Shown here in pieces: positions 1 to 36,841 of a stretch of 36,841 nt of DNA. Position numbers and translations under genes: made by a program. This DNA is from a virus. The DNA lies in the IMG/VR virus record IMGVR_UViG_3300045131_002132, positions 1 through 36,841 of that record; one strand, 5' to 3'. A model generated the notes under the pieces. It made no database searches and had not been told where the DNA came from. It saw only the letters and a list, made by a program, of their open reading frames with translations. Every line of letters starts with the position of its first letter. The stretch's first letter is position 1.

Positions 1-8
1 CTGATGTT

Positions 9-134
9 CAATATTTGCCGGTCGTTCCTGGTAGCTTAGGCAGGGAACGGTCCAAAGTCGAGAGATTGGCGCCGACACTTCCAAGTTATTGGATGTGCCG
101 GCGCTTTTGTTTTTAACCCTCGGGGCGTGCTTAT
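9..134. repeat. Terminal direct repeat, left copy
   Basis: This segment is identical over 126 bases to the last 126 bases of the window. The eight bases before it match the eight bases that precede the right copy after a two-base AA insertion. The simplest reading is a circular molecule opened at an arbitrary point, with the junction sequence reported twice. A true terminal redundancy is possible but less likely at this length. The repeat holds the leader and terminator of the late operon and the first bases of its first gene. Confidence 0.9.
69..114 (+). terminator. Intrinsic terminator in the late-operon leader (left copy)
   Basis: A hairpin begins with GCGCCG (69-74) and closes with CGGCGC (99-104). 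Inside it CAC pairs with GTG and TCCAA with TTGGA around a GTTA tetraloop, with one A-C and one T-T mismatch. It is followed by TTTTGTTTTT (105-114). Stem plus U-tract is the textbook layout of a rho-independent terminator. It sits about 20 bases upstream of the first structural/lysis gene, so transcripts from the promoter at the other end of the window must read through it. Confidence 0.85.
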
Positions 135-543
135 GAAACTTCTTTTTACATCGCGTAAATTCTGGGCAGCAGCAATCGCCCTGGTCGTCATCATCGTGGC
201 ATCCTTCGTGCCTGACTTCGCCATTGACCAGGAGCGGGCGGTCAGCCTGGCGGTAATCATGGTCACCTACCTGGTAGGCACGGCCATCGATCCCGGCCCT
301 GGTAACTGGAAGGGGGTGATCCTCTCTCGCAAGTTCTGGGCAGCCGTTATCGGGCTGATCGTTATCTTCCTGGATGCGTTTCACGTTGTACTCCCCGTTG
401 AACTGACAACCGAACAGCTTATTTCTGTGGTCGTGATCATCTCGGGCTACATCGCAGGGGTGGCCGTCGAGCAGCCCAAACAGCTCGCGCAGCCAGCCAC
501 ACCGCCCTTTGTCGCTGATGAAACGGAATGGGCCGAGGGATGA
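133..543 (+). CDS. Holin-like membrane protein with duplicated hairpin
   Basis: The protein has about 136 residues and four hydrophobic segments arranged as an internal duplication. Both halves begin with SRKFWAA, continue with a membrane segment, a short acidic linker and a second membrane segment. The position directly upstream of a coiled-coil membrane protein and a glycosidase-like endolysin suggests a holin or other lysis membrane protein; this is inference from context, since I do not recognise a named holin family. The ATG at 133 is preferred; a GTG at 127 in the same frame is an alternative, and neither has a strong ribosome-binding site. The C-terminus is rich in Pro, Gln and Ala. 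Confidence 0.75.
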   Translation: MKLLFTSRKFWAAAIALVVIIVASFVPDFAIDQERAVSLAVIMVTYLVGTAIDPGPGNWKGVILSRKFWAAVIGLIVIFLDAFHVVLPVELTTEQLISVVVIISGYIAGVAVEQPKQLAQPATPPFVADETEWAEG

Positions 544-2373: not shown

Positions 2374-2853
2374 ATGCCGACGCCGATCAAATCCAGCAAA
2401 AACATGAGCATAGGCGGCCGCGACGGTGGCAAACACCTGACGCGGGCCGAACTGGAGTCGCGCCAGGCTGCAGAGTCAGGGCACACGCGCCGGCGGGTGC
2501 TGCTGAAGCCGCCGGATTGGCTGAAGGAGTCTGAGGATGCGATGAAGGTGTGGAAGAGCATCCTAAAGAAGCTCAAGGGCATCGAGCTGCTCGACGATCT
2601 AGACAGCGAGCTGCTGGCCATCTACTGCGATGCCCTGGTCAATTACCGGCTGTGCAGCCGCGGCATGAAATTGGTTGGCGAAGATGGCGAGATGCTCGCC
2701 AACGATGAACGCATGAAGACGACGCAAGCCTGGGCGCGCATCGTCACGTCCTACGCCGACAAGCTGGGCCTGACGCCCGGCGGCCGAGCACGCCTGGCCA
2801 AACGCAAGGCCGAACAGGTCTTCGATCCGTTTGCTACTGAGTTTGGAGGCTGA
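2374..2853 (+). CDS. Small terminase subunit, P27-like
   Basis: The protein has 159 residues. It has a charged N-terminus (GGRDGGKHLTRAELESRQ), a WLKESEDAMKVWKSI helix, and the C-terminal LTPGGRARLAKRK element that is characteristic of P27-family small terminases. It would recognise phage DNA and load the large subunit for packaging. The large terminase gene follows two bases after its stop. No strong ribosome-binding site is seen before the ATG at 2374, and the upstream gap may carry other signals. Confidence 0.85.
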   Translation: MPTPIKSSKNMSIGGRDGGKHLTRAELESRQAAESGHTRRRVLLKPPDWLKESEDAMKVWKSILKKLKGIELLDDLDSELLAIYCDALVNYRLCSRGMKLVGEDGEMLANDERMKTTQAWARIVTSYADKLGLTPGGRARLAKRKAEQVFDPFATEFGG

Positions 2854-2855
2854 TC

Positions 2856-4568
2856 GTGACGCATCCTACCACCCAATACGCGCTTGATGTGGTCGAGGGA
2901 CGCCGGGTTGCCGGCAAGCCCGAGATCCAGGCATGCCAGCGGCACCTGGATGACCTCACGCGCCAGGGTGGCGAAGACTTCCCGTGGATCTTCGATGAGG
3001 CCAAGGCCAATAAGATCATCACCTGGTTCGGCTACTGCAAGCACGTCAAGGGCCCGCTGGCCGGGCAGCCGATCGAGCTGGAGCCCTTCCAGCAGTTCGA
3101 CCTGGGCTGCATCTTCGGCTGGGTGCATCCTGAGACCGGCCTGAGACGGTTTGAGAAGGCCTACATCCAGGAAGCACGCAAGAATGCCAAGTCCACGATC
3201 ATGTCGGGTATTGCGCTGTACCTGATGGCTGGCGATCAGGAAGAGAGCCCCGAGGTGTACTGCGCCGCGGTCGATAAAGAACAGGCCCGCATTATCTACA
3301 AGGATGCCAAGGCCATGGCGCAGAAGTCGCTCGATATCTCGAAGCGGCTCAAGATTCGCGATTACATGATCAGCCACGTCTCGCGCGGCGGCGAGCTGAA
3401 GGCGCTCTCGAAAGAGACCAAGAACAAAGACGGTCTCAACCCCAGCGGCGCCATCATCGATGAGTACCACGCGCACGATACCAGCGAGATCTACGACCTG
3501 CTGTGGTCCGCCTGGGGCCAGCGTGCCCAGGCCCTGATGGCTATCATCACCACGGCCGGGTTCGAGACCAACGAGAACCCGTGCCATAAGGAATACGAAT
3601 ACTGCAAGCAGATCATCGCGCGCCTGGTGACCAACGAGCGCTATTTTGTGATCATCCGCGAGCTGGATCCAGGCGATGATGAGCACAATCCGGCTGTCTG
3701 GATCAAGGCCAACCCGCTGCGCGCGGCCACCCCGGCCGGGCTGAAGAAGATTAAAGAGCAGCACGACGAGGCCTTTAGTTCGAAAGACTCGGCCAAGATC
3801 CGTAACTTCCGCGTCAAAAACCTCAATATCTGGGTGGATGAAGCGGAGGATAGTTACATCGGCGATCTGTTGCCGCGCTGGAATGAGCTGGCCATCAGCC
3901 GTGAGGAATTCGCTACGCTGACCCGCGGCATGAAATGCCTGGTGGGTGGTGACCTTTCGAAGAAGATCGACCTGACGGCCGACGCCTTTCTATTTGCGCT
4001 GCCAGACGGGCGCGTGGCAATCACTGCGCATGGCTTTATGCCATCAGAGTCGGTTATCAAGCACGAAAAAACCGACAAGATCCAATACCGCGATTGGATC
4101 AAAGCCGGCTGGGCGACGGTCACAGAGGGCGACGCCACCGACTATCATGCCATCGAAACCCACATCCACGACTGCGAGCTGGAGCATGGGTGGAAGGTGC
4201 ACGAGTTTGCCTTTGACCCGTATAACGCCACCCATTTCGCCAATGACCTGGCCAACCAGGGCTACACCACGGTTGAGATCCGCCAGGGCGTGCAGACTCT
4301 GAGCGAACCGACCAAGCTCTTCCGCGAGATGATTGCCCAGCGCAAGATCGTGCACGATGGCTCGCCGCTGTTGACCTGGTGCCTGGCCAACGCAGTGACG
4401 GCCCAGGACAGCAATGAGAACATCAAGCTCTCGAAGAAAAACGCCAGCGATACCAAGCGCATCGACCTGCTGGCTGCCGGCATCAACGCTATGGTGCGTA
4501 TCGAAGCGCTGCGCGAGACATCGCGCGATCTGAATTCCGAAATTCTTTCGGAAGATTGGGGCATGTGA
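2856..4568 (+). CDS. Large terminase subunit
   Basis: The protein has 570 residues and a GTG start. The N-terminal ATPase has an atypical Walker A at about 107-114 (ARKNAKST) and a Walker B at 198-204 (GAIIDEY). The C-terminal RNase H-like nuclease begins near 362 with VGGDLSKKIDLTA, whose Asp is a likely metal ligand, and continues with FDPYNATHF near 450. Length and motif order fit the Terminase_1 family of HK97-like phages. It powers DNA entry into proheads and cuts the concatemer. Its stop overlaps the next start. Confidence 0.95.
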   Translation: MTHPTTQYALDVVEGRRVAGKPEIQACQRHLDDLTRQGGEDFPWIFDEAKANKIITWFGYCKHVKGPLAGQPIELEPFQQFDLGCIFGWVHPETGLRRFEKAYIQEARKNAKSTIMSGIALYLMAGDQEESPEVYCAAVDKEQARIIYKDAKAMAQKSLDISKRLKIRDYMISHVSRGGELKALSKETKNKDGLNPSGAIIDEYHAHDTSEIYDLLWSAWGQRAQALMAIITTAGFETNENPCHKEYEYCKQIIARLVTNERYFVIIRELDPGDDEHNPAVWIKANPLRAATPAGLKKIKEQHDEAFSSKDSAKIRNFRVKNLNIWVDEAEDSYIGDLLPRWNELAISREEFATLTRGMKCLVGGDLSKKIDLTADAFLFALPDGRVAITAHGFMPSESVIKHEKTDKIQYRDWIKAGWATVTEGDATDYHAIETHIHDCELEHGWKVHEFAFDPYNATHFANDLANQGYTTVEIRQGVQTLSEPTKLFREMIAQRKIVHDGSPLLTWCLANAVTAQDSNENIKLSKKNASDTKRIDLLAAGINAMVRIEALRETSRDLNSEILSEDWGM

Positions 4569-33065: not shown

Positions 33066-34907
33066 ATGCCACCATCAACCGAAGTAAAGTTAGAATTTAT
33101 CCGCTTCTCGCGCTACCAGACCCGCGATACCGAAGACCGCCAGCACATTGAGCAGCTGGCCGTCAGCATTGCCACCGCCGGCATGCAGCAGATCCCGGCC
33201 GGCCGCCTGATATCCGGCGCCACCGATGAGCCCATCACCATCGCCGAAATGAACAAGGGCTATGGCCGCTACGAAGCTGCCTTCCGCGCCAACGTGCGCG
33301 TTGAGCTGGCTTATGGCCACAGCCGCTATTCGGCCTATGTGCTGCTGGATGCGGTCCAGAAGTGCATCCGTGAAAAGCTGGACTTTGACCCCAGCATGCC
33401 GTTGGATGTGATAGAAGCCGCCGGCAATGCCTGGCACCAGGGCATCTACTTCGAGCGCTTCCCGGTGGTAATTCGCGACCTGGTCGATCTGGAGATGTTT
33501 GAGCTGGGCGTGCGCGAAAACCACGACCGCAAGCAGCTCAGCGGGCTGGAGGTGGCCAGGGCGATGGAGGTATACCGCGAGCAGTTTGGGAAAACATCCG
33601 TGCAGATTGGCCAGCTCTTCCGCATGTCAGACTCTACCGTGCGCGGCAAGCTGCGCCTGCTGGGCCTGCCGGAAGCGGTGCAGGCTCAACTGGCCGGCGT
33701 GCCCGAGCAGGTGCTGCGCGAGATCCTGGTGATGCTCGACTTGCCCGAGGATTATCGCAAGCGGGCAGAAACCACACACGAAACGTACATTAACCCAACC
33801 GTTATCATCGACATGGCTGCCAACGGCGCCACCGCTGAGGTGATCGCTGAACGTGTGACCAGATTAATCAAAAACTGGGGCAAGGATCTGAGCCAGGCGC
33901 CGTGGAAGCACGACCGGGAAGACTGGGCCGGCGACATCAACGTGCGCGGGGCGTGCAAGGGCTGCCCAATGCGTTTCCAGCGTGAGAAAATCAGCTATTG
34001 CCTCGAATCGGCCTGTTATGCCGCGAAAAAGCACATCTGGGAAACTGAGTACCTGCAGCAGGCTTCGTTTGTCAGCGGGCTGCAGGTGATGGATGACAAG
34101 GGTAATTTTTTCAGCCCGACTGATTTCAATTACGGAAGCGATCAGATTGTGCTCGAAACGGCGCGCGCGTCTGGCTGCTCTAACCTGGTGCTGGTGTTCG
34201 AAGATCCAAAAGCATGGCATGACGACAAATTCGCGCGGATCGACGGCTTCGATAAGGCAAAGATCATCTGCAAAAAGCGCAACGGCTACTGCACTTGCGG
34301 AGCGGCCGTCAAAGCCGGCGTGACGGTTGCCCAGCCGGCCGCACAGCCCGCGGCCAGCACGATCGAAGCAGACGGCAGCGATCAGCCGGCAGCAAAGCCA
34401 ACCCTGACCGCTGACGACCTGAAGGACGTGGCGCGCGAGGTGCGCCAGCAGAAGAAACAGAATACGGCTGATGTGCGCTTCCTGGCCAGCAAGATGGCCG
34501 GCATCTTCGCCCAGGCGCTTAAGAGCAATAACCCGGCCGTGTGGTTTGAGGTCTGGCGCGGCATGACCTACCAGGCCAAAGAGGGCAGCTCATTTGACGA
34601 AATCGCGGTGGCCATTGCCCGGCTGCTGGTCGAGCGCATTTACAACGCTGAGACATCCTACAGCGAGCCCACGCCAGCCCTGGCCGTGAAGGCCTACAAC
34701 GGCTTCCTGCGCAGGGCCGGCCTGCCCGAGCTGGACGGCGTGCCTGGGGTGGAGTCTGAGCCGCCGGCGCCAGCAAAGCCGCAGGGAAAGAGCCTGTCTG
34801 AGGTTTTTGAGGATTCCCAACGGGAGATCGACAACATCAAAAGCAACATTCTGGAAGGCGAGACGCTGGCTGAATATTTCAAGCGAACCGAGCTGGTGGA
34901 GGCGTAA
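33066..34907 (+). CDS. ParB-like CTPase/DNA-binding protein with Cys domain
   Basis: The protein has 613 residues with AGGAG before its ATG. The N-terminal ParB/Srx fold shows YGHSRYSA (83-90) at the place of the G-x-R-R CTP-binding motif and ENHDRKQLS (151-159) at the place of ENxxR. A helix-turn-helix follows at about 175-200 (QIGQLFRMSDSTVRGKLRLL). Cys297, Cys300, Cys312 and Cys317 (CKGC and CLESAC) form a probable zinc site, as in some plasmid ParB relatives. A Pro/Ala linker leads to a helical C-terminal region. No ParA is visible. Seven parS-like sites in this genome are the obvious candidate targets, but binding is inferred. Confidence 0.85.
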   Translation: MPPSTEVKLEFIRFSRYQTRDTEDRQHIEQLAVSIATAGMQQIPAGRLISGATDEPITIAEMNKGYGRYEAAFRANVRVELAYGHSRYSAYVLLDAVQKCIREKLDFDPSMPLDVIEAAGNAWHQGIYFERFPVVIRDLVDLEMFELGVRENHDRKQLSGLEVARAMEVYREQFGKTSVQIGQLFRMSDSTVRGKLRLLGLPEAVQAQLAGVPEQVLREILVMLDLPEDYRKRAETTHETYINPTVIIDMAANGATAEVIAERVTRLIKNWGKDLSQAPWKHDREDWAGDINVRGACKGCPMRFQREKISYCLESACYAAKKHIWETEYLQQASFVSGLQVMDDKGNFFSPTDFNYGSDQIVLETARASGCSNLVLVFEDPKAWHDDKFARIDGFDKAKIICKKRNGYCTCGAAVKAGVTVAQPAAQPAASTIEADGSDQPAAKPTLTADDLKDVAREVRQQKKQNTADVRFLASKMAGIFAQALKSNNPAVWFEVWRGMTYQAKEGSSFDEIAVAIARLLVERIYNAETSYSEPTPALAVKAYNGFLRRAGLPELDGVPGVESEPPAPAKPQGKSLSEVFEDSQREIDNIKSNILEGETLAEYFKRTELVEA

Positions 34908-35884
34908 TGGGAAAAACAGCGATTGAATGGGCAACCGATGTATGGAACCCGGTTACTGGCTGCCATAAGGTAAGCGAAGGCTGCCGCAACTGCTATGCCA
35001 AAGTGCTGCACGACATGCGGCACAAAGCCTATCTGGATGCGCGCATGGTGCCGCTGCAGTACGCTGAGCCATTCGAGAAAATTCAGATGCACCCGAAACG
35101 GCTGGCACTGCCAGAAGGCTGGCGCAAGCCTCGGCGCATCTTTGTCAACAGCATGAGCGACCTGTTTCATAAGGACGTGACTGACGAGTTCATAGATCAG
35201 GTCTTTGCCGCAATGTTCGACGCTGGCAGACACACCTTTATGATTCTGACCAAGCGTGCAGAGCGTATGGCCTGGTACTTATCACCAGATAACCCGCGCT
35301 ATTCCGCCAGAAAAGTATTCGACATTACCAAAGGGCCTGCCGGCAAGTTCGACTGCGATATGTATTGGCCGCTTGACAATGTCTGGTTGGGCACGAGCGT
35401 GGAGAACCAGCAGGCAGCCGATGAGCGCATTCCCTGGCTATTAAAGACCCCGGCGGCGGTGCGGTTTGTGAGCTGCGAGCCGCTACTCGGGCCGGTGGAT
35501 CTCAAGCCGGCTGAAATAGCACAATGGCCAAATATGACCGATGCCTGGATGCCAAACAAAGAAGAGCCGGACGATTGGAAATATTGGATGCACAAGTGGA
35601 ACGGCATTTCGTGGGTCATTGCCGGCGGCGAGAGTGGCCCAGGCGCCAGGCCTATGCACCCCGATTGGGCGCGCGGCTTGCGCGATCAATGCCAGGCGGC
35701 GGGCGTGCCGTTCTTCTTCAAGCAGTGGGGGGAGTGGACTTCGGAATTTCCACAGCATAAGAACCTTACTAATACTCAAATGACATACCAGCACAACGAG
35801 ACCTTTTACCGAATTGGCAAGAAGTTGGCCGGCCGGCTTCTCGATGGGCAGGAATGGAACCAATTTCCAGAGATAAAAAAATAA
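34907..35884 (+). CDS. Phage Gp37/Gp68-family (DUF5131) protein
   Basis: The protein has 325 residues. MGKTAIEWATDVWNPVTGC, Cys19-x6-Cys26-x2-Cys29, FVNSMSDLFH, LTKRAERM, VWLGTSVENQ, RFVSCEPLLGP, VIAGGESGPGARP and FFFKQWGEW are the conserved blocks of this family. The three Cys and the fold suggest a radical-SAM-like iron-sulfur protein, but its reaction is not established. The start overlaps the ParB stop (TAATG), so the two are likely made together. Confidence 0.9.
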   Translation: MGKTAIEWATDVWNPVTGCHKVSEGCRNCYAKVLHDMRHKAYLDARMVPLQYAEPFEKIQMHPKRLALPEGWRKPRRIFVNSMSDLFHKDVTDEFIDQVFAAMFDAGRHTFMILTKRAERMAWYLSPDNPRYSARKVFDITKGPAGKFDCDMYWPLDNVWLGTSVENQQAADERIPWLLKTPAAVRFVSCEPLLGPVDLKPAEIAQWPNMTDAWMPNKEEPDDWKYWMHKWNGISWVIAGGESGPGARPMHPDWARGLRDQCQAAGVPFFFKQWGEWTSEFPQHKNLTNTQMTYQHNETFYRIGKKLAGRLLDGQEWNQFPEIKK

Positions 35885-36354: not shown

Positions 36355-36444
36355 ATGAATGAATGGGAAGAATGGAAAAAGCAAACGATCGACAATAATC
36401 AAGACCTGGTGCTGCCGTTGATGTATAAAATGTTCTGCCAATAA
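36355..36444 (+). CDS. 29-residue peptide
   Basis: The reading frame begins MNEWEEWKKQTIDNNQD and ends in TAA that overlaps the next ATG (TAATG). No strong ribosome-binding site is seen; a parS-like site occupies the upstream region. The coupling to the next gene is the main support for translation. Confidence 0.4.
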   Translation: MNEWEEWKKQTIDNNQDLVLPLMYKMFCQ

Positions 36445-36692
36445 TGAGCGAATTCTGTATGGATAAAATTCGACGGTGGGTAAAACGGGCACGGCCTTAT
36501 CTGGTAACACGCGCGCGCCGGCTGCCCTGGCTGCGCTGCCGGCATTGTGGCCGCCGGCTGGTGGAAATTGATGTAATCGATGGGCACACCTGCATTCGTA
36601 TCGGGGCCGGGACCAGCCGGCATGTATACATCGAATGCCGGCGCTGCGGCGAAGAGCGCGAGTTCGTCGGAATGCGCATTGATTTACGGTGA
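36444..36692 (+). CDS. Com-like zinc-ribbon protein
   Basis: The protein has 82 residues. CRHCGRRL at 32-39 and CRRCGEER near 67-74 form a zinc ribbon, with a strongly basic N-terminus (RRWVKRARPYL). Size and layout recall phage Mu Com-type proteins that bind RNA, and it lies directly upstream of the late promoter, so a role in late-gene control is possible but unproven. The last 14 bases overlap the -35 region of the late promoter. Confidence 0.7.
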   Translation: MSEFCMDKIRRWVKRARPYLVTRARRLPWLRCRHCGRRLVEIDVIDGHTCIRIGAGTSRHVYIECRRCGEEREFVGMRIDLR

Positions 36693-36707
36693 AAATGTTG
36701 CTATACT
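36679..36707 (+). promoter_or_regulatory. Late-operon promoter
   Basis: TTGATT (36679-36684) and TATACT (36702-36707) are separated by 17 bases, a good sigma70-type promoter. The start would be near 36714. Transcription runs across the circular junction into the leader and terminator and then the lysis and structural genes. Confidence 0.75.
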
Positions 36708-36713
36708 GATGTT

Positions 36714-36821
36714 AACAATATTTGCCGGTCGTTCCTGGTAGCTTAGGCAGGGAACGGTCCAAAGTCGAGAGATTGGCGCCGACACTTCCAAGTTATTGGA
36801 TGTGCCGGCGCTTTTGTTTTT
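36714..36821 (+). ncRNA. Structured leader of the late operon (right copy)
   Basis: From the expected start to the terminator is about 108 bases. A first stem pairs GGTCGTTCC (36727-36735) with GGAACGGTC (36751-36759), with two wobble pairs. The second is the terminator described below. GCCGG near 36724 is complementary to CCGGC in the terminator's 3' arm, so an alternative antiterminator fold is conceivable. It may be a cis-acting antitermination leader or a short terminated RNA. No known riboswitch consensus was recognised. Confidence 0.5.
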
Positions 36822-36841
36822 AACCCTCGGGGCGTGCTTAT
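36716..36841. repeat. Terminal direct repeat, right copy
   Basis: This is identical to bases 9-134. The only difference at the edge is AA at 36714-36715, absent from the left copy. It contains the second copy of the leader and ends two bases into the first late gene. Confidence 0.9.
36776..36821 (+). terminator. Intrinsic terminator in the late leader (right copy)
   Basis: GCGCCG (36776-36781) pairs with CGGCGC (36806-36811) through a 14-pair stem with two mismatches and a GTTA loop, followed by TTTTGTTTTT. It lies about 60-105 bases after the late promoter's expected start. Confidence 0.85.

Follow-up and report, generated by a model that had tools for sequence, protein, structure and literature searches.

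The head of the late operon

The window, as we call the whole stretch of 36,841 nucleotides analysed here, is the virus record IMGVR_UViG_3300045131_002132, whose ends overlap, positions 36706-36841 being equal to positions 1-134 apart from a 2-nt indel. As the ends overlap, a promoter-terminator unit at the end of the record runs on into a holin gene (ATG at 133), the lysis genes, terS and terL, and the promoter-leader-terminator unit, seen on the circular map, opens the late operon. The features of the locus are the following, with the basis of each in brackets.

36444-36692, plus strand: 82-aa zinc-ribbon protein with two CxxC motifs (CRHC, CRRC), the candidate trans-acting partner of the leader, its gene ending within the promoter (homologue in L040; position)
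36679-36707, plus strand: late promoter with -35 box TTGATT (36679-36684), 17-nt spacer and extended -10 box TGCTATACT ending at 36707 (sequence; -10 position kept in relatives)
36727-36760, plus strand: P1, a hairpin in the leader RNA (fold; corresponds to family helix 1, where 4/6 pairs show double changes)
36764-36767, plus strand: linker GTCG, which pairs with CGAC at 36780-36783 to give the predicted hairpin P2alt (family covariation and the four-scan test described below)
36775-36812, plus strand: terminator hairpin, whose 5' arm at 36780-36783 is common to P2alt (fold)
36812-36821, plus strand: U-tract TTTTGTTTTT (sequence; about 40 of the 46 members of the family have a U-rich tail)
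1-134, plus strand: 36706-36841 repeated at the opposite record end (ends overlapping by 134-136 bases, with the 2-nt indel, as in a circular map)
133-543, plus strand: holin-like membrane protein, the first gene past the putative switch and the start of the late operon (PHROG holin matches)
2374-4568, plus strand: small (2374-2853) and large (2856-4568) terminase subunits further on in the late operon (Pfam/PHROG scan)

Further lysis genes lie between the holin-like gene and the terminase. An integrase gene and one resembling a repressor gene are also present, and the phage's terminase has relatives in Anaerolineae genome bins. Ahead of the late promoter and on its strand, positions 33066-34907 encode a ParB-like protein of 613 aa that carries a ParB domain at its N-terminus and an HTH. 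Positions 34907-35884 encode a DUF5131 protein that is also present in six other records bearing the element described below. The overlap sequence is not quite the same at the two ends: a 2-nt difference (TTCAATA versus TTAACAATA) falls exactly at the expected transcription start and is either assembly noise or a sign of real variants.

The promoter matches the consensus at 9/12 positions, and a consensus scan returned three promoter-like sites against 1.2 expected, so the window promoter is not significant alone. It is taken as real beyond chance because of the comparative evidence, namely the RNA models and the position of the -10 box, which is present (at least 5/6 matches) at the expected place in 25 of 43 related elements compared with 5.3 ± 2.0 in shuffles. 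On the same grounds, the pairing of this promoter with a terminator, as proposed in an earlier note made from the sequence alone, holds up, and the spacing given there agrees with ours, the terminator lying 68-105 nt past the -10 box.

Folding of the 117-nt leader gives -41.5 kcal/mol, which corresponds to z = -3.3 relative to dinucleotide shuffles. The terminator core at 36776-36811 accounts for -22 kcal/mol and contains a single internal A-C mismatch, the A of which is taken in by the linker pairing; the terminator is absent from the list of a simple consensus scan. In the nascent RNA of the window, the fold with P1 and P2alt lies 1.2 kcal/mol above the best fold. A pairing of the 5' end with the U-tract, hinted at by the window's own fold, was dropped since its signal is absent across the family members, and leader peptide attenuation was likewise rejected, as the short reading frame at 36709 (MLTIFAGRSW) is by inspection not kept in relatives.

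A search of the leader against Rfam 15 returned no match at gathering score, a weak match to MCS4 (E 1.5) being due to chance, and a tRNA search found nothing. Among annotated phages there was neither a nucleotide match to the leader nor a protein match to the 82-aa protein, the exact leader pattern gave no match in IMG/VR, and the open-access literature searched does not describe this leader for phages.

The leader family and its alternative pairing

To find similar units, TerL and holin relatives of the window were scanned for terminators, and a degenerate linker/arm pattern added further members from all of IMG/VR. The unit found in IMG/VR relatives and Anaerolineae prophages consists of a -10 box, about 10 nt, hairpin P1, a short linker and a strong terminator followed by a gene. 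It occurs in one or two copies, usually ahead of holin/lysis genes or between terL and portal, and the phages bearing it, prophages included, fall in at least two terminase groups. The metagenomic records among them are fragments and several are near-duplicates, so that the counts given here are not counts of independent events. The gene past the element encodes a hydrophobic product, mostly holin-like or otherwise another membrane protein, in 33 of 44 members.

Two RNA models, R1 from 6 and R2 from 28 sequences, were built with the window left out, and both recover the window element at E values of 5e-4 to 7e-3. In the 5.3-Mb genome G027, R2 has just two matches, which are the two elements of its prophage, and across the class it matches one of 298 genomes. 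Judged by these comparisons of sequence, the promoter and terminator of the window belong to a conserved, previously undescribed family of leader RNAs. The layout of late promoter, structured leader, terminator and late operon, which the earlier note had read from the window, is thus right and is conserved in relatives.

Because the family linker (e.g. GTCGG) can base-pair with the terminator's 5' arm (CCGAC), P2alt and the terminator are mutually exclusive. The covariance search in relatives that had been suggested for this locus came out in favour of both helices: in an alignment of 40 sequences, double changes occur at 4/6 pairs of P1 and 4/5 pairs of P2alt with 98.8% of cells paired, whereas controls with slid register drop to at most 56%. 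As this alignment had been fitted to the model, an independent test was made by exact scans of 2.9 million viral contigs (IMG/VR) for the four combinations of two linker and two arm variants, a match being counted as an element only if it came with P1 and a terminator hairpin, a criterion independent of linker pairing. TCGG/CCCG gave 16 elements and TCAG/CCTG 7, while TCAG/CCCG and TCGG/CCTG gave none (Fisher 4e-6, not corrected for phylogeny), and yet one of the crossed combinations would need merely a G-U pair. A third variant, TCCG/CCGG, was found in two elements, L016 and L281, which look real on inspection. In L014, L052 and L170 the linker is altered along with the 5' arm and the corresponding letter of the 3' arm is unchanged; as the linker follows the 5' arm and not the 3' arm, the linker pairing itself is under selection.

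Folding of the nascent RNA up to the 3' arm gives P1 together with P2alt in 31 of 40 members, and stepwise folding of one member during transcription predicts the same two hairpins until the 3' arm appears, whereupon the terminator forms. From these predictions and the covariation, the view that the leader RNA is a switch between the terminator and a rival hairpin is strongly supported. That we are dealing with an ordinary promoter ahead of an unrelated terminator, for which the unremarkable score of the promoter by itself might speak, is extremely improbable and is contradicted by every comparative result, i.e. the RNA models, the four-scan test, the -10 position and the covariation.

Since P2alt is less stable than the terminator, something has to keep it in place. 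The linker is a near-copy of the terminator's 3' arm, often with weaker G-U pairs, and such a copy would brake terminator closure unaided. It could therefore simply slow closure to set a fixed level of read-through; with the sign reversed, a zinc protein could stabilise the terminator and so delay lysis, and the genes downstream are indeed mostly holin-like. We regard this pair of explanations as unlikely, since a fixed level would need neither a conserved adjoining P1 nor a co-inherited protein.

The U-tract is absent in 6 of 46 members (L044, L045, L054, L105, L161 and L182), where termination may have been lost or may depend on a factor. Some members have lost the U-tract while keeping P1, P2alt and the hairpin, and run on into a ribosome-binding site, which would fit a leader that acts after transcription, either as a 5' stabiliser of the late mRNA or as a small RNA transcribed from the late promoter. 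Such a role seems quite improbable, given the U-rich tail directly past a strong hairpin in about 40 of 46 members and the selection on the linker:5'-arm pairing, which competition with the terminator explains best.

Several further features of the family were observed. The subgroup of L044, L045, L054, L105, L161 and L182 keeps P1, the linker and the hairpin, the sequence past the hairpin being for example TCGCCGTTTAAGG, and past the hairpin many members have a CGTTTAA-like motif. The P1 loops of L012, L020, L024 and L052 carry CGCTCTTG or CGCTCTTT, which are boxA-like (CGCTCTTA) and missing from the other subgroup. In L038, a further promoter-like site with a strongly structured stretch lies upstream of the element at 250-450 (GAGCAACCACTCTAAGAC...CTGAGTTGGTTGCTC). 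The TerL relatives L005 (at 3208), L018 (at 3404) and L021 (at 2917) have a promoter and a strong terminator before lysis genes with no clear P1/P2alt and possibly represent a different type of leader.

The zinc-ribbon protein gene

A first look at BLAST-clustered proteins suggested that no upstream protein is shared by the relatives, a result overturned by a two-CxxC pattern and a profile search. In most relatives, similar small two-CxxC proteins are encoded upstream of the element, and the search revealed a protein family that occurs in both terminase groups. This zinc-ribbon family, termed A8, has the signature W[KR]C-x2/3-[CH], LG.V, R.L.L.R, V.C..C...RTW.PG and matches no Pfam or PHROG profile. 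Its predicted fold is confident (pLDDT 82); a fold search returned no relative in the PDB, a LicT chain at E 2.9 being meaningless, and a single unnamed viral protein at E 6e-6.

A8 is present in nearly all element-bearing virus records with enough upstream DNA and missing from G002, G020 and G021, TerL/holin relatives in which no convincing element was found. Several element-bearing records end too soon upstream to be judged, and those with short upstream DNA and no A8 match are G007, G018, G024, G026, G327, G331, G332 and G334. The exceptions despite upstream DNA are L281/G333, with no zinc protein in the 8 kb upstream of the element in L281, and the window itself. Among the 298 genomes of the class, the A8 protein model independently matches the same single genome as the R2 RNA model.

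Contig C7 of G027 holds a second, orphan A8 match with no R2 element near. In the 20 kb around it there is exactly one strong terminator on either strand, 2.5 kb downstream of the protein gene, and ahead of it lie a P1-like hairpin and the linker GACGG, which pairs with CCGTC. Going by its sequence, this is a divergent element that was missed by the RNA model and found via the protein.

The A8 profile does not match the 82-aa protein of the window. This protein is 45% identical over 56 aa (E 2e-14) to a protein of L040, whose gene stops 28 nt ahead of L040's own element and whose phage has a TerL 71% identical to that of the window. By homology, the window protein and its L040 counterpart form a separate subtype of zinc protein, and since this homologue sits at the same place, we treat the window protein as having the same role. 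Probably, rather than demonstrably, it shares both role and superfamily with A8. The zinc-protein gene adjoins the element in the window, L017, L040, L041, L062, L066 and L097 and lies 1-6 kb away in many other relatives.

The earlier note had suggested the Com-like upstream protein or the leader RNA as the antiterminator. This idea has gained from the selected anti-terminator pairing and the near-constant presence of a zinc-ribbon gene; a kinship to Mu Com proper is not supported, all matches being below threshold. The window protein has no Pfam Com match and reaches E 0.013 with phrog_6417 (translational regulator) and E 8e-4 with phrog_5602 (unknown function), and the A8 members tested do not match Com profiles. 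The RNA and the gene for a small zinc-binding protein probably make up a previously undescribed switch for late gene expression.

Proposed mechanism and comparison with known systems

Our best reading, which we hold to be probable, is an attenuation switch of two parts, with the zinc protein promoting P1 and P2alt and thereby read-through into the late genes. At the level of sequence, the promoter, P1, the selected linker:5'-arm pairing, the position ahead of the late genes and the association with a zinc-ribbon gene are established. The leader would be a conserved attenuator RNA that separates the late operon from its promoter. During its synthesis by RNA polymerase, P1 would fold first, and the linker would next pair with the terminator's 5' arm to form the second small hairpin P2alt beside P1. 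Left to itself, the emerging 3' arm would displace the linker, the terminator would close and transcription would stop. Once the small phage zinc-ribbon protein has been made from the preceding genes, it would bind P1/P2alt, or the polymerase carrying them, and keep the linker on the 5' arm, whereby transcription would enter the holin, lysis and packaging genes. What we infer here is that the zinc protein acts as the effector, does so on RNA, and increases read-through instead of blocking it.

Antitermination may in addition be processive. A possible, on balance rather unlikely, form of this, which would be a new class of antitermination machine in phages, is a protein-RNA hybrid of put and Q, in which the zinc-ribbon protein would capture P1/P2alt on the nascent transcript, ride RNA polymerase and resist terminators across the late operon, the dedicated terminator serving as an on/off test.

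What is understood of late-gene activation comes largely from phages of the well-studied host groups, and the phages of Anaerolineae have hardly been studied. A compact cis-acting RNA with a small zinc protein offers a testable late switch; it would bring one RNA family and one protein family to the databases, serve as a marker of late-operon starts in metagenomic phages and be a new case of a terminator/antiterminator choice, controlled by a zinc ribbon.

A late promoter followed by a terminator and the late operon is the logic of lambda Q, and this order of promoter and terminator before the late operon is found in the window. The likeness to lambda Q with pR'-tR' (and to Q21 and Q82) extends to the small regulator gene just upstream, which in the window even overlaps the late promoter. 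The zinc protein might accordingly bind DNA at the late promoter, load onto paused RNA polymerase and let it ignore the terminator, the RNA structure being incidental. This is unlikely, if slightly less so than the other alternatives weighed here apart from the hybrid, because the pairs of both P1 and the linker:5'-arm helix covary, which a DNA site would not need, and because the protein gene is 1-6 kb distant in many relatives. Q works from a site in the DNA and a pause close to the promoter, whereas here RNA base pairing is conserved, and no Q-family protein was found among the part of the window's genes that was scanned with Pfam and PHROGs; the suggested kinship to Q is therefore not supported.

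HK022 put comprises about 70 nt with two stem-loops (PMC9378689). The present element likewise is a phage leader RNA with two tandem hairpins just past the promoter, proposed to counter termination, P1 and P2alt being borne out by the nascent folds and the covariation. If it worked like put, P1 and P2alt would form a factor-independent antiterminator on the zinc-binding domain of the polymerase with the zinc-ribbon gene as a mere neighbour, and the two element copies per genome in several phages would fit. That reading, too, we consider unlikely. Put works alone via the beta' zinc-binding domain on distant terminators, whereas here one strand of the second hairpin is also part of the terminator, P1 varies and is short, and the strong co-occurrence of the zinc-ribbon gene argues against such independence of protein. 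A kinship to put, also raised at the outset, is accordingly not supported.

A precedent is Com of Mu, a zinc protein that attaches to an RNA hairpin and opens a neighbouring inhibitory structure (PMC6483171). Com and the protein considered here are both small zinc proteins encoded just upstream of their target, but Com controls the translation of mom, while the structure here is a terminator before a late operon. Bipartite antitermination by a small protein and an RNA is described for conAn1/conAn2 of Gram-positive conjugative plasmids, as cited in PMC11658703. That system, compared by description only, is alike in its two parts and differs in serving conjugation operons.

In mechanism the element is closest to LicT/RAT, an attenuator with a protein-held antiterminator, and it belongs to none of the known families tested. 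As in the BglG/LicT-RAT systems of the bgl, lic and sac operons, the antiterminator hairpin takes in the 5' portion of an intrinsic terminator, an arrangement found in the leader family, and a protein is proposed to hold it so that the downstream operon is read. The protein here is a small zinc ribbon instead of a CAT RNA-binding domain with PRDs, a domain for which the zinc proteins gave no Pfam match, and the element controls a phage late operon, carries the second conserved hairpin P1 and involves no sugar signal.
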